Shown piece after piece: positions 1 to 4,380 of a stretch of DNA of 5,041 nucleotides. The stretch is from Thermoplasmata archaeon (lineage in GTDB: Archaea; Thermoplasmatota; Thermoplasmata; Thermoplasmatales; Thermoplasmataceae), in NCBI GenBank assembly GCA_021816385.1, contig JAKAYJ010000096.1, positions 1 to 5,041 on the forward strand, in the 5' to 3' direction. The position numbers and the translations under genes are program-made. Position 1 is the first letter of the stretch. Every line of letters begins with the position of its first letter. Below the pieces are notes generated by a model that was not told where the DNA came from, did no database searches, and saw only the letters and a list, made by a program, of their open reading frames with translations.

Positions 1-1278
1 CTGGTTGCTTCAATGTTACCAGCAAATTCAGTTAATCATAATAATCAAAAAAATGTTACATATATGCAAAACAGTTCTGGAAAAAATCTGGTAATAATAA
101 ATTTTGATTATTCAGTAGATCCTGGGGCAGTTGACATGTTCAATAGTGCATTAAGCGGGTTGAACAGCACAAACACTGCAGGTGTTGTTATTGAAATGAA
201 TACCCAGGGTGGCCTCATAGATAGCATGCTAACCATAATAGATGACATAAATCACACAGAATCAATCGGAATTCCTGTTTTCACTTATATTTCGACAAAT
301 GGTTTTGGTGCTTATGCCGGTGCATACATAGCAATGGCATCCACCCAGGTATGGATGGCTAGAGGTTCGGTAATAGGACCTGCAACTCCCTCGGAAGATG
401 CATCTGATTTCCAGGCATTGATGATTAGCCTTGCACAGGAGCATAATCATAACGTAACTGCAGCCTCTCTCATGGTTACCAGTGGGGAAACATACTCCTA
501 TTCAGGCGCTTCAAATAATGGACTCGTTAATGGAAACACCACAAGCTTCAGCAACTTTCTGGCAAGAATAGACATGGCTGGATACCATCAGGACACGGTT
601 TCTGAATCCTATTTTGATCAGTTTGTCAGTTTCATAAGCAATGCTACAGTTGATGGTCTTCTGATATCATTTGGCTCCCTTGCCATATTACTGGATTTAT
701 ACCACCGAACAATTTTTATGACATTACTCGGTCTAGGTTTGATAATTTTGGGGTTCCTTGGCTCACAGTTGATCGATGCGTCAGTGGTAGGTCTGGTTTT
801 CCTGGTTATGGGCTCCATACTCATATTCCTTGAATCCAAGACTGGACATGGAATAGCACTTATGGCTGGAGTCGCCGTGGATATCATAGGAACACTATTC
901 CTGGTCTCACCCCAGTATGATCTTACTGCACAACCATATTCTTCCGGATATTCACCATCACCCATAAACGACTCTTTCATAATAACTGCAATACTTGTAC
1001 TGTTGATTGCTGCTTTTATAGCCTATTATATAAATAGAATCGTAAAGTCACAGGTGAGAAAACCTGTTACTGGATGGGAGTCCATGATAGGCAGTGAAGG
1101 CACAGCAGATACTGATATAGATCCAGAAGGATGGGTTTCCCTTGAAGGGGTAAGATGGAAAGCGAGAACTGAATCAAGCGAACGAATTGAAAAAGGTGAA
1201 CATGTGATTGTTATAGGTATAAACAACCTGACACTGGTCGTAAAAAAGGTGGTAGATTCTGGACGTACTGGGATTTGA
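1..1278 (+). CDS. NfeD/ClpP-class membrane protein, 5'-truncated by window edge, predicted protease-dead
   Basis: This is an NfeD-family membrane protein. Family members such as Pyrococcus PH1510 are membrane-anchored ClpP-fold serine proteases that work with stomatin/SPFH proteins. The frame is open to base 1. The first residues (LVASMLPANS) look like the end of a signal peptide, so the ATG at 13 is probably internal and the true start lies upstream. Numbering from that ATG, residues about 25-190 form the ClpP/crotonase-like domain, with the oxyanion-type TQGG at 64-67. Five hydrophobic segments follow, at about 213-230, 233-252, 256-274, 279-299 and 321-341. A C-terminal OB-fold NfeD domain spans about 353-412 (GWESMIGSEG, then PEGWVSLEGVRW). 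Compared with PH1510 as I recall it (ASAGTY with Ser97; IKSLAQ with Lys138), this protein reads AYAGAY and MISLAQ. Tyr101 and Ile138 therefore replace the dyad. A scaffolding or membrane-organising role is inferred. No stomatin gene is seen downstream; one could lie to the left. The family call is firm, the inactivity less so. Confidence 0.85.
   Translation: MVASMLPANSVNHNNQKNVTYMQNSSGKNLVIINFDYSVDPGAVDMFNSALSGLNSTNTAGVVIEMNTQGGLIDSMLTIIDDINHTESIGIPVFTYISTNGFGAYAGAYIAMASTQVWMARGSVIGPATPSEDASDFQALMISLAQEHNHNVTAASLMVTSGETYSYSGASNNGLVNGNTTSFSNFLARIDMAGYHQDTVSESYFDQFVSFISNATVDGLLISFGSLAILLDLYHRTIFMTLLGLGLIILGFLGSQLIDASVVGLVFLVMGSILIFLESKTGHGIALMAGVAVDIIGTLFLVSPQYDLTAQPYSSGYSPSPINDSFIITAILVLLIAAFIAYYINRIVKSQVRKPVTGWESMIGSEGTADTDIDPEGWVSLEGVRWKARTESSERIEKGEHVIVIGINNLTLVVKKVVDSGRTGI
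1248..1252 (+). promoter_or_regulatory. Shine-Dalgarno for the ROK kinase, inside the nfeD-family gene
   Basis: GGTGG, preceded by a run of A, lies 6 nt before CTG 1259 and 3 nt before ATT 1256. The decamer AAAAAGGTGG at 1243-1252 is identical to the one at 2936-2945 in front of merA. This supports initiation here, before the DIGGSK loop, rather than at ATG 1379. Confidence 0.55.
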
Positions 1279-2257
1279 TATAGGTGGATCGAAAATTTCC
1301 GTATTTCTTTCCGAGAGTAATGGTGAAATCCATAAGAGGCTTAAGATTAAGACTCCTAAATTCAACTCTCCAGCGGAGATGGTAGAACTCATAGGTAACA
1401 TGGTAGACAGTATAGAGGAAGAAACTGGAAGAATTCCAGATGCTATTTCCGTTGTTATTGCAGGGGCAGTCGATGCTAGACGTGGCATAATAAGATCTTC
1501 TCCAAACCTGTTTGGCGGAACGGAGATTGAATTCTCAAAAATGCTAGAAGAGAGACTTGGAAAAATAGTGTATATAGAAAATGACGCCACAGCAACGGCC
1601 ATTTCAGAGAAGATATTTGGGAACGGCAAATCGCAGGATAACTTCCTTTATATTACAATGAGCACAGGCATTGGAGGAGGAGTATTCATCAATAACAGGA
1701 TATACAGGGGGTCCCTTGGAATGGCAGGAGAATTTGGCCACATGGTAATTGATCCTCTGGGCCCCATATGTGGATGTGGAAGAAGGGGCTGTTTTGAAAT
1801 CATGGCTGGAGGAAAGGGGACACTGAGAATAATGGAAGCGATGAACACCTATGCTAAATCGCCCTACCTGAAGAAAATTCCCACTGAAAAGCTGGAGGCA
1901 AGGCATGTTTTTGATGGTGCAGAGGCAGGAGATAAGGAATGTATCCGTGTTGTAGACAAGGTGGTTGAAAACATGACTAGAGGGGTTGCCAATCTGGTAA
2001 ATATATTCGACCCGGATGCCATAATGATAGGTGGAGGCCTATCCAATTCAAAGGAACTGGTTGTTGATGGTATCGCGGAAAGACTCCAGGATGAGTTGAA
2101 GACAATGAGGAGAGACGTGGAAATATACAGGACGAACCAGATAACTGTTGAACTCTCGCCTCTCGCAGTGGTTCTTTATGAAAAGGAGATGCCATCGTTC
2201 AATTATGAAAGGATTATAAGAGAAATGAGGGAAAAGATCACAGAAAAGACAAAATGA
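1259..2257 (+). CDS. ROK-family sugar kinase with non-canonical start codon
   Basis: This is a cytoplasmic ATP-dependent sugar kinase of the ROK family (glucokinase, N-acetylhexosamine kinase and relatives). The sugar cannot be told from sequence. Numbered from the CTG at 1259 (332 aa), the phosphate loop DIGGSK is at 7-12, the likely catalytic Asp109 lies in ENDATATA, and STGIGGG is at 135-141. GEFGH is at 157-161. The zinc ligands His161, Cys171, Cys173 and Cys178 match the spacing of the ROK zinc site (H-x9-C-x-C-x4-C). The adenosine-side GGG is at 258-260. No DNA-binding domain precedes the kinase, so it is an enzyme and not a Mlc/NagC-type repressor. The frame is closed by TAG at 1253 and holds no ATG, GTG or TTG before DIGGSK; the first ATG (1379) would delete that loop. 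GGTGG at 1248-1252 sits 6 nt before CTG 1259 and 3 nt before ATT 1256. The gene overlaps the NfeD gene by about 20 nt, which suggests translational coupling. Function is confident; the exact start is not. Confidence 0.85.
   Translation: MDVLGFDIGGSKISVFLSESNGEIHKRLKIKTPKFNSPAEMVELIGNMVDSIEEETGRIPDAISVVIAGAVDARRGIIRSSPNLFGGTEIEFSKMLEERLGKIVYIENDATATAISEKIFGNGKSQDNFLYITMSTGIGGGVFINNRIYRGSLGMAGEFGHMVIDPLGPICGCGRRGCFEIMAGGKGTLRIMEAMNTYAKSPYLKKIPTEKLEARHVFDGAEAGDKECIRVVDKVVENMTRGVANLVNIFDPDAIMIGGGLSNSKELVVDGIAERLQDELKTMRRDVEIYRTNQITVELSPLAVVLYEKEMPSFNYERIIREMREKITEKTK
2232..2254 (-). terminator. Possible T-tract terminator for the regulator transcript
   Basis: Read on the minus strand, just beyond the regulator stop codon, there are three T4 tracts (2251-2254, 2244-2247, 2232-2235). 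Archaeal RNA polymerase can terminate on U-rich tracts without a hairpin. The stretch lies inside the 3' end of the kinase gene, where lysine codons also explain the A-runs, so this is tentative. Confidence 0.25.
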
Positions 2258-2259
2258 GA

Positions 2260-2631
2260 TTAATCCTTTGATATTTCCTCATCGCTCACAAGTTTAATGA
2301 AAGGTTTGAGGGAAGCCAGTACCTCAGTACCAAACTTTGTAAGACTGTAGGTCAACCTCCCATCTGTATTATTCTTGTATATGAGACCTGAATCTAGCAG
2401 TTCCCTGAGTCTCTTTGAAATTATTGTAGAACTGGATAGGGGAATGTGCGATTTTACATTATTGAAGTTGGAGTTTATGCCATTGATCTTAATGCTAAGC
2501 ATAACAAGCAGAGAATATTTCCTGGATAGTACCCTGAGAACAGGCAGTGAAGGATCAATACAAAGTTTTTTGCCGTCTACTTCTATCATGCAAATCTCAA
2601 GCCTGTTCTGCCTCCTTGAATATTCATCCAT
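2260..2631 (-). CDS. HxlR-like winged-helix regulator, putative mercury-responsive
   Basis: This is a small DNA-binding protein of 123 aa from the ATG at 2631. Residues about 36-115 form a winged helix of HxlR type: RKYSLLVMLSI corresponds to the GKWTLLIL helix, the recognition helix is about 66-84 (SSSTIISKRLRELLDSGLI), and the wing is about 85-98, ending TYSLT. Cys14 and Cys24 precede the domain. Several HxlR-family sensors (such as YodB and HypR) use an N-terminal cysteine, so thiol or Hg(II) sensing is plausible. A TTG at 2673 would add 14 residues but lies inside the putative operator, so it is unlikely to be the start. ATG 2631 sits about 24 nt from a TATA box, which fits a leaderless mRNA. 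The gene is divergent from the HMA-merA pair and convergent with the kinase, with two bases between stop codons. Control of the mer genes is inferred from position. An ArsR- or PadR-like winged helix is the alternative. It is not a MerR-family protein. Confidence 0.75.
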   Translation of the reverse strand: MDEYSRRQNRLEICMIEVDGKKLCIDPSLPVLRVLSRKYSLLVMLSIKINGINSNFNNVKSHIPLSSSTIISKRLRELLDSGLIYKNNTDGRLTYSLTKFGTEVLASLKPFIKLVSDEEISKD

Positions 2632-2650
2632 ATGAACAGAAGTTTGAAAA

Positions 2651-2658
2651 TAATATAA
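2651..2658 (-). promoter_or_regulatory. TATA box of the regulator promoter
   Basis: The minus strand reads TTATATTA, centred about 24 nt upstream of ATG 2631. Archaeal transcription usually starts about 25 nt past the TATA centre, so the transcript would begin at or within a base or two of that ATG and be leaderless. Confidence 0.6.
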
Positions 2659-2664
2659 TCTTTT

Positions 2665-2682
2665 AGTAAACAAAAGTTTACT
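2665..2682. promoter_or_regulatory. 18-bp palindromic operator candidate between divergent promoters
   Basis: This is a perfect inverted repeat, AGTAAAC-AAAA-GTTTACT, with 7-bp arms and a 4-nt spacer. It ends exactly 6 nt from each of the two TATA-like boxes (2651-2658 and 2689-2696), so it abuts both TFB-recognition (BRE) positions. The size and symmetry suit a dimeric winged-helix protein such as the adjacent regulator. A dimer bound here could block or assist TFB/TBP at both promoters. Whether it acts as repressor or activator cannot be told from sequence. Confidence 0.7.
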
Positions 2683-2688
2683 TTGCCC

Positions 2689-2696
2689 TATTTATG
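2689..2696 (+). promoter_or_regulatory. TATA-like box of the HMA-merA operon
   Basis: TATTTATG is centred about 24-25 nt before ATG 2717, the spacing expected for a leaderless archaeal transcript. No GGAGG-like sequence lies just before the ATG, which fits leaderless translation. The box is a weaker TATA match than the one for the regulator, as might be expected of a regulated promoter. Confidence 0.55.
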
Positions 2697-2716
2697 CATG
2701 GCATCAATTTCCATAT

Positions 2717-2950
2717 ATGGTAGAAAGGAAAATTGAACTCAAAATCTATGGAATGACCTGCGAGGACTGTGCGTTTACCATAAAAAATGAAATGGAAAAA
2801 ATAGGGGCAAGAGATGTTAATATCGATTACAGGAAAGGTATGGGTAGCCTCATACTGGACGATACAGAAAACCCCAGGGATAAAATACTGAAAAGCAGGG
2901 TTTTCGCACCAGAATCCCATTACAAGGCCATAATCAAAAAGGTGGAGTGA
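2717..2950 (+). CDS. Cytoplasmic HMA-domain Hg(II)-binding protein (MerP/NmerA-like)
   Basis: This 77-aa protein is a single heavy-metal-associated domain (ferredoxin-like fold). The metal-binding motif is GMTCEDC, with Cys15 and Cys18. There is no signal peptide, so unlike bacterial periplasmic MerP it should stay in the cytoplasm. Its body resembles the N-terminal HMA domain of bacterial MerA: YRKGMGSLIL against YPKGTAQLAI, and HYKAII against GYKATL, as I recall the Tn501 protein. The gene lies directly upstream of merA and its TGA overlaps the merA ATG by one base, so the two are probably translated in a coupled way. The likely job is to bind Hg(II) through its cysteine pair and hand it to the C-terminal cysteines of MerA. 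Metal specificity is inferred from context; HMA domains also bind copper. There is no earlier in-frame start near the promoter. Confidence 0.85.
   Translation: MVERKIELKIYGMTCEDCAFTIKNEMEKIGARDVNIDYRKGMGSLILDDTENPRDKILKSRVFAPESHYKAIIKKVE
2941..2945 (+). promoter_or_regulatory. merA: Shine-Dalgarno that sets the merA start
   Basis: GGTGG, within AAAAAGGTGG (2936-2945), lies 4 nt before ATG 2950 but only 1 nt before the in-frame GTG at 2947. This favours the ATG as the true start. Confidence 0.6.
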
Positions 2951-4380
2951 TGGAAGAGGAGTTCGATATTGCAATTATGGGTCGGGGAGCAGCAGCTTTC
3001 TCCTGTGCCATAAAAGCATCAGAACTCAGTCACAATCAGGCTGAAATAGTTATGATAGGTTTTGGGTTCATAGGAGGAACATGTGTTAATGTGGGATGCG
3101 TCCCATCAAAGTACATCCTTGAATCTGCCAGATACTATCAAAAGCTGAAAAATCCGCCATTTCCCGGTATATCATCCAGCAATAATTCACTGGACTTCAG
3201 GGAACTGATGGAAAGTATCGAACATTTGACATCTGGGGAAAGGAAGACAAAATACGAGGATGTGGTAAAATATTATCCAAACATTCACGTAATGAATGGT
3301 CATGCTAGGTTTCTGGCCCAGGATAGGATAGAGATCATCAATGGTAGTGAAATATCAGAAATCACTGCTTCCAATGTTGTGATTGCAACGGGCTCTTCAC
3401 CATCATTGCCCGATATCCGTGGTTTGAGGGAACTCCAGGGAGAAATTCTGACAAGTGATAGCGTCTGGAATTTAAGGGAAAAGCCCTATTCTATGGGTAT
3501 AATTGGCGGAGGCTATATAGCTCTGGAGTTAGGCCAGGCTCTTTCAATGCTTGATGTTAACGTAACTATTTTCAAGCATCATGAGACAATAAACAGGATG
3601 GGTGATAGGGATATTGATCTTAAATTGATCGAATCCATAAAATCGGACCATCTCAAAGTTTTGACAGGATACTCAGTGAAGGAGGTTAAAAAGAATGGAA
3701 GTTCATACATTATAGTTGCAGAAAATGGGGGAAATATTTCAGAATTCGAGTTTCAGAAATTAATGATAGCTTCTGGAAGAAGGCCAAATATAGAAGGTCT
3801 TGATCTTGGAAAAGCTGGTGTGAAATATGACGCGTCCGGTATAATTGTGGATAACACCATGTCAACATCAAACCCGCTGATATTTGCTGCAGGTGATGTT
3901 GTAAAACAGAAATTCAACCTGGAAACAGTTGCGGCGAGAGAAGGGACAATTGCAGCAAACGCCATGTTCGGCCAGCCATTTGTACCCATTGAAGAAGCAT
4001 ACATTCCATGGGGAATATTCACAGATCCACAGGGTGCTTTTGTGGGTTACAGTGAAAGTGAGCTGAGGCAGAAAAATATTAGTTACGAGTCAGTGCAGAT
4101 AGGCATTGAATCTGTTCCAAAAGCCAGAATAATAAATGAAGATAAGGGAATCTATAAACTGTTGTTCGCAGCAGATAATCATGAAATCCTCGGAGTACAG
4201 GTTATTTCACCCATGGCAACTGAGATCATAATGGAGGGTTCATACATCTTGAGAAATAAGATGACTCTTGAGGACCTTGTATCCATGACACATATATTTC
4301 CTACTATTTCAGAGGGAATAAAAATTGCTGCACAGTCCTACTCAAGGGATATCTCAAGAATGAGCTGCTGCATGGAATGA
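2950..4380 (+). CDS. merA: Mercuric reductase MerA, short form without N-terminal HMA domain
   Basis: MerA is a cytoplasmic FAD disulfide oxidoreductase that reduces Hg(II) to volatile Hg(0) with NAD(P)H. From ATG 2950 the protein has 476 aa. The FAD-binding motif GRGAAAFSCAIKA is at about 11-23. The redox-active pair Cys45/Cys50 lies in GGTCVNVGCVPSK. A Tyr in TKYED (residue 102) matches the active-site Tyr194 of Tn501 MerA. The NAD(P)H Rossmann motif GIIGGGYIALELGQ is at about 183-196, followed by basic KHH, which hints at NADPH. The second FAD motif FAAGD is at 312-316, and the dimerisation domain runs from about 350. The tail ends SCCME: the vicinal Cys473/Cys474 are the diagnostic Hg-binding pair that separates MerA from lipoamide dehydrogenase. 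The segment FPTISEG replaces FPYLTMVEG of Tn501, so the second active-site tyrosine (Tyr441) seems absent. The length fits MerA cores lacking NmerA, and the HMA function is supplied by the upstream gene. Confidence 0.95.
   Translation: MEEEFDIAIMGRGAAAFSCAIKASELSHNQAEIVMIGFGFIGGTCVNVGCVPSKYILESARYYQKLKNPPFPGISSSNNSLDFRELMESIEHLTSGERKTKYEDVVKYYPNIHVMNGHARFLAQDRIEIINGSEISEITASNVVIATGSSPSLPDIRGLRELQGEILTSDSVWNLREKPYSMGIIGGGYIALELGQALSMLDVNVTIFKHHETINRMGDRDIDLKLIESIKSDHLKVLTGYSVKEVKKNGSSYIIVAENGGNISEFEFQKLMIASGRRPNIEGLDLGKAGVKYDASGIIVDNTMSTSNPLIFAAGDVVKQKFNLETVAAREGTIAANAMFGQPFVPIEEAYIPWGIFTDPQGAFVGYSESELRQKNISYESVQIGIESVPKARIINEDKGIYKLLFAADNHEILGVQVISPMATEIIMEGSYILRNKMTLEDLVSMTHIFPTISEGIKIAAQSYSRDISRMSCCME

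Follow-up and report, generated by a model that had tools for sequence, protein, structure and literature searches.

The CopR system of Pyrococcus furiosus is among the described systems closest to the locus reported here. The CopR site is placed directly upstream of the TFB-recognition element (BRE), between divergent TBP/TFB sites, and in vitro copA was raised and copR lowered (available part of PMC7830388). The same source relates that the CopR of Thermococcus onnurineus, whose layout is nearly the same, was reported as a repressor. Weak TFB sites are rescued by upstream activators, as described in the accessible text of PMC5512572. According to the available portion of a review (PMC3466566), archaeal mer operons often consist of merA alone, some are accompanied by an ArsR-like regulator, and a merP homologue is found only in Ferroplasma. 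In the text available from a later survey (PMC8261052), word counts find neither HxlR nor ArsR, and a single occurrence of words for regulation. In a search of the open-licence literature, no paper dealing with a mer regulator of the HxlR type came up.

The window, which is the whole stretch of 5,041 nt that was analysed, contains a mer operon placed divergently from an HxlR-family gene. Its genes are:

1-1278, plus strand: NfeD-like protein
1256-2257, plus strand: ROK-family protein
2260-2631, minus strand: HxlR-family winged-HTH regulator (123 aa; Cys14, Cys24), candidate binder of the operator (PF01638 and 3df8 matches)
2717-2950, plus strand: HMA-like metal-binding protein of 77 aa with the motif GMTCEDC, opening the mer operon (Pfam HMA match at E 6e-4, below the Pfam cut-off)
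2950-4380, plus strand: mercuric reductase MerA, 476 aa (TIGR02053 match)
from 4439, plus strand: Dam-like methyltransferase, start of the gene

MerA belongs to the TIGR02053 equivalog family (463.7 bits, with a cut-off of 454.45) and its redox and C-terminal cysteine pairs (C45, C50, C473 and C474) are invariant in 25 sequences. The merA ATG overlaps the HMA stop codon in TGATG. A small HMA-like protein directly precedes merA in all 69 distinct loci of the searched order with at least 280 nt upstream. The top-scoring named relatives of MerA belong to Cuniculiplasma sp. SKW3 and a Thermoplasmatales archaeon, each with 46% identity, and closer relatives exist. Scans with this single protein confirmed no match in genome contigs and none in viral contigs; the plasmid search gave at least 5000 records, all below 60% identity among the matches listed. 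Further upstream, the ROK frame contains no ATG, GTG or TTG from the upstream stop to the conserved DIGGS motif (window 1253-1280), so ATT or CTG is the probable start codon, with an overlap into the NfeD gene.

The gap between the HxlR and HMA genes is occupied by two promoters and a repeat:

2651-2658, minus strand: TATA-like box of the HxlR gene
2659-2665, minus strand: TFB-recognition position on the HxlR side, TAAAAGA, 6 purines in 7, good BRE
2666-2681, no strand: putative operator core GTAAAC-AAAA-GTTTAC, of the GTAAA-N6-TTTAC family (10/10 match and order-wide conservation)
2682-2688, plus strand: TFB-recognition (BRE) position on the mer side, TTTGCCC, 1 purine in 7, poor BRE
2689-2696, plus strand: TATA-like box of the HMA-merA operon, 7 nt past the core

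An earlier note on this DNA had described an 18-bp perfect palindrome at 2665-2682. The sequence is in fact AGTAAAC-AAAA-GTTTACT, with 7-bp arms around a 4-nt AAAA spacer and 14 of the 18 positions symmetric. This is the sole perfect repeat of its kind (arms of at least 7, spacer of 0-8) within the 5041-base window. Significance of the repeat by itself was rejected, since one of this kind turns up in 347 (11.6%) of 3000 sequences made by dinucleotide shuffling of the 85-nt gap; a repeat so near chance leaves the case to rest on conservation. The geometry given in the note is correct: a TATA-like box lies 6 nt off the repeat on either side, TTATATTA at 2651-2658 on the minus strand and TATTTATG at 2689-2696 on the plus strand, and the ATG codons at 2631 (minus) and 2717 (plus) are nearly equidistant from the centre at 2673.5, by 42.5 and 43.5 nt. 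These start positions fit leaderless transcripts, and the spacing from TATA to start is near-constant over the mer loci. A role of the repeat as an RNA hairpin was set aside because it would lie upstream of both predicted start points.

Conservation was followed through two locus sets. The MerA protein alignment gave 80 loci, with L001-L006 from Thermoplasmata, and the order of genome G002, taken to be Thermoplasmatales, was searched in 117 genomes (HxlR match at 1e-10 in 70, MerA match at 1e-90 in 64). The tblastn set comprises 12 of the 80 alignment loci and every locus from L081 on. From the extracted loci, 77 distinct sequences upstream of HMA matches were obtained, 43 with a divergent HxlR gene and 34 without. 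Five were dropped as lying outside the order, namely L084, L086, L087 and L088 of G004 (the last is not a mer locus) and L005 of G005, leaving 72 with the window included. In all 72, the end of a GTAAA-N6-TTTAC core lies 34-37 nt before the HMA start codon (35 nt in 51, 36 nt in 18, 34 nt in two and 37 nt in one). The best cores score 10/10 in 48 upstreams, 9/10 in 18 and 8/10 in six. Among 3850 mononucleotide shuffles, a score of 10 was reached by none, 9 by 43 and 8 by 467, and consequently the 8/10 cores count through their place and not their score. For L177, the best core chosen by the script was exchanged for an equal-scoring one 5 bases upstream, which moves the distance to the ATG from 30 to 35 nt; this locus is excluded from the TATA and BRE counts. 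Removal of upstreams at least 85% alike leaves 54 and an unchanged picture, with the consensus A-R-GTAAA-N6-TTTAC-T/G-T, whose inner positions 6-9 are nearly all A or T. The conserved flanks widen the window operator to about 2665-2683. Of 71 mer promoters, 63 have a TATA-like box that begins 7 nt past the core. The six 8/10 sites include two, L157 (GTTAA/TTAAC) and L139 (GTAAG/CTTAC), in which the changes came in pairs and the arms are still perfect, as a dimer would predict; the operator inner positions 5 and 10 show no covariation.

The repeat is thus well supported, by comparison of the upstream sequences, as an operator of the mer operon at a fixed place in this archaeal order, for both site and target. 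A single operator between divergent regulator and mer genes, abutting TFB-recognition positions, was proposed in the earlier note and is supported. By that note, lack of conservation of the palindrome beside orthologous gene pairs would speak against the proposal; on the mer side the site is conserved (34-37 nt in 72 of 72). On the HxlR side the distance varies.

The pattern RGTAAAN6TTTACKTT has 60 sites in 48 of the 117 genomes. Thirty-seven of them precede a MerA match by no more than 500 bp (252-298 nt), and 35 of these 37 are on the MerA strand. The reversed control pattern gives 24 sites in the 117 genomes, which places the 23 remaining sites at roughly chance. Four of these 23 are found at HxlR or mer contig ends (G044:C33, G081, G118 and G032), one precedes a second operon discussed below, and 9 of the 19 inspected fall inside ORFs of more than 120 codons. 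A large regulon was rejected on the control count and on these ORF positions. In 400 kb sampled from G053, the mer site is the only one. Before HxlR genes away from a divergent HMA gene, 18 of the 19 distinct upstream regions fetched score 6-8/10; the exception, L171, scores 10 and lies at a contig end. Autoregulation through this operator is therefore not general for HxlR genes away from mer.

The two promoters of the window were then compared with those of the relatives. For the HxlR gene, the distance between core and candidate ATGs ranges over 15-98 nt in the 40 order-level gaps (1-98 nt when GTG and TTG candidates are included). The mirrored layout is clear in the window, L119 (G053) and L090 (G054), with 34, 34 and 37 nt; in L095, L097, L105 and L175 it hinges on the choice of start codon and was not counted as clear. 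With at most 7 of 40 gaps compatible with it, mirror symmetry does not hold as the design principle that the earlier note had seen in it. In many relatives the A/T-rich core itself falls at the expected TATA position of the HxlR gene, and in others the core is far away. The window and L119 share an identical 39-nt block at 2647-2685 (38 of 38 over 2648-2685), followed by 8 of 11 identities at 2686-2696 and 19 of 36 in the remaining gap. With full identity confined to this block, both promoter edges seem to be constrained in the clade of the window, L119 and L090.

Ordinary promoters were taken from one genome, G053, as the 66 of 181 intergenic upstreams that have a good TATA box (36%, against 6% at random positions). 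In the 7 nt upstream of TATA, the mer promoters have on average 1.9 purines (58 distinct sequences) versus 4.4 in the ordinary ones (n=66; Mann-Whitney 1.5e-17), and at least four purines in seven occur in 4 of 58 mer versus 51 of 66 ordinary promoters. A smaller background of 19 promoters gives a difference in the same direction. In the window the layout is symmetric and the promoters are not: the regulator side looks strong and the mer side looks weak. On the other hand, the conserved flank of the operator reaches into BRE positions -7 and -6, and the pyrimidines of the BRE stretch may belong to the regulator footprint and not mark a weak promoter.

The divergent HxlR protein is the candidate binder. 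It belongs to the HxlR family (PF01638, 30.9 bits, cut-off 20.8), and the best-matching solved structures go by the names of HxlR-family or putative regulators. The closest by sequence is 3df8, a 'possible HxlR family transcriptional factor' (E 2.2e-19, 72.8 bits, residues 15-116), for which, to our knowledge, no function is known. Compared with L176, the 3df8 chain seems to begin at an internal Met past the first conserved Cys, and for this reason its structure could not show a two-Cys site. None of the six Pfam matches at E 0.1 is an ArsR-family HTH or, in this 123-aa protein, a C-terminal TRASH domain; a lone weak ArsR-named PDB chain matches (3f6v, E 0.033), and neither Pfam nor NCBIfam gives a MerR-family DNA-binding domain. 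The predicted structure (mean pLDDT 86, lower over the first 30 residues) shows a winged-helix fold whose short N-terminal strands carry the cysteines. Cys14 and Cys24 are both kept in all 43 mer-linked HxlR proteins, which makes them a likely Hg(II) site. They are also kept in 19 of 20 HxlR proteins that do not adjoin mer, where the pair may serve another thiol-reactive signal.

Several observations indirectly support this protein as the binder. HxlR is divergent across the site in 40 of 43 HxlR-HMA gaps. With a cut of about 1e-15, which excludes three weak genomes, HxlR is present in 58 of 64 MerA genomes versus 9 of 53 others (Fisher 1e-16, ignoring relatedness), and 4 of the 9 HxlR genomes without a MerA match have a partial merA. 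The class of the recognition helix also tracks the class of the operator: the 38 SS-helices face 30 sites of 10/10, seven of 9/10 and one of 8/10, and the two proteins with an SNRT helix have operators with GTTAC in the right half. In the outgroup G004, three mer copies (L084, L086 and L087) with a divergent HxlR gene have a gap of 266 nt. Their three ARSN-helix HxlR proteins face GAAAA-N6-TTTTC, which may be an operator variant matched to them, 34 nt upstream of the ATG; 106 of 20000 shuffles hold any such repeat at 34-37 nt. Taken from these sequence comparisons, the operator is probably bound by the neighbouring HxlR-type regulator.

The preferred reading, which is given a probability of about 0.6, is that the repeat is the operator of a two-Cys HxlR regulator. 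Much like CopR, this regulator would turn down its own strong promoter and, on Hg(II), turn up the weak one of mer. A dimer of the divergently encoded HxlR protein would bind GTAAA-N6-TTTAC next to the HMA-merA TFB-recognition position, on its upstream side. The pyrimidine-rich TFB-recognition position should leave the mer promoter weak alone. Binding of Hg(II) to Cys14 and Cys24 would alter HxlR, aid the loading of TFB/TBP and turn mer on. In the window and its two close relatives, the operator also abuts the TFB-recognition position of the HxlR gene, and because this position is purine-rich in the window, binding there would hold down the regulator gene. From the promoter anatomy and the CopR precedent, we infer that the cysteines sense mercury, that mer is activated and that the regulator represses its own gene, and with these steps the sign of regulation; this sign is not readable from the layout with certainty, as the T. 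onnurineus CopR was reported as a repressor.

The same operator and regulator could also work by pure repression, the dimer blocking TFB/TBP at mer (and at its own promoter where that is close) until Hg(II) releases it. This alternative is considered unlikely, yet it has points in its favor: the operator touches the BRE position, the core of many relatives occupies the would-be HxlR TATA region, a usual place for a repressor, and the available text of PMC3466566 describes the Sulfolobus solfataricus mer system as repression only. A repressor, however, needs no poor BRE, and the pyrimidines at this position are kept order-wide; the operator moreover stops 7 nt short of the TATA box instead of covering it, and activators typically bind upstream of BRE (accessible part of PMC5512572).

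Another order-wide factor or a TFB variant might instead read the operator, HxlR being a mere neighbour. The site is present in 32 of 72 upstreams without an adjacent divergent HxlR gene (contig ends included), where HxlR would have to act in trans, and HxlR was undetected in 6 of 64 MerA genomes (G003, G036, G076, G078, G116 and G119). In three of these, G036, G116 and G119, merA lies at a contig end. The co-occurrence of HxlR with MerA, the tracking of operator class by helix class, outgroup included, and the draft state of the genomes argue against this reading, which is held to be improbable. Very improbable is the model of the earlier note, a mirror-symmetric element on which one dimer gates both leaderless promoters equally. 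It agrees with the geometry of the window, L119 and L090 and with the 39-nt block identical in L119, but the HxlR-side distance varies in the relatives and the two BRE stretches of the window, TTTGCCC (mer) and TAAAAGA (HxlR), are opposite in purine content, which speaks against equal gating.

G053 carries two further loci of interest on L160. A second exact operator copy (L160 1604-1623) lies 38 nt before the gene of a 187-aa protein, in an operon at L160 1661-2830. The protein contains hydrophobic stretches and the motifs FCCTP and GCC, and a gene for a thioredoxin-like protein is next. Among the 117 genomes it occurs in three others, G114, G090 and G075 (loci L242, L243 and L244). The core scores 9/10 before the G114 and G090 orthologues, again at 38 nt, and 8/10 before that of G075, at 37 nt (read by eye). 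The MerTP and MerF models gave no significant match to two of the orthologues (E 0.51 and 4.7) and none to the G053 protein. For this reason mercury transport is only a lead, and the 187-aa membrane protein a possible mercury carrier. At L160 7447-9583, a further mer cluster adjoins a transposase. Its divergent HxlR paralogue (7447-7830) has a different recognition helix and neither of the two cysteines, and a tandem ACTAGGTATACTTTA repeat comes after it. The HMA upstream of this cluster is one of the six 8/10 sites and was interpreted as a different repeat.

The likeness to the P. furiosus CopR/copA pair, as given in the available part of PMC7830388, is that a divergent regulator and a metal-detoxification gene share one semi-palindromic site upstream of BRE. 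The sequence alone fits a CopR-like layout: the site abuts BRE, the target BRE is poor and, in the window, the regulator BRE is good, so that here too the regulator promoter would be strong and the target promoter weak. CopR differs in having a TRASH metal-sensing domain and in sensing copper, whereas the protein described here is of the HxlR family, with two N-terminal cysteines and merA as target. In bacterial mer promoters, the poor feature is the -35/-10 spacing, whereas here it is the TFB-recognition position, and the regulator family is unrelated to MerR. A poor promoter under the regulator would be common to both, and so would a divergent, autoregulated mer regulator (available portion of PMC3466566). 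The same portion describes the S. solfataricus mer regulator, like the putative one here a local archaeal regulator of merA, though of the ArsR family instead of HxlR and told there as repression only.

More tentatively, HxlR proteins with the two-Cys (Cys-x9-Cys) pair may add a third type of mercury regulator to MerR and ArsR. The order would then have independently reached a MerR-like operator with a deliberately poor TFB-recognition stretch, the same protein holding and firing mer, and a regulon that includes the second operon with its possible mercury carrier. Archaeal switches in which a metal regulator works on a weak TFB site are already known, and the HxlR-type mer version would be a variant of them. 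The archaeal order gains a concrete and testable mercury switch composed of one protein, one 16-bp site and one fixed geometry, and this invariant spacing makes the mer promoters suitable for measuring how an archaeal factor offsets a poor TFB site. If the activator reading is true, Archaea and Bacteria share the trick of a crippled promoter and a metal-bound regulator, achieved through unrelated proteins.
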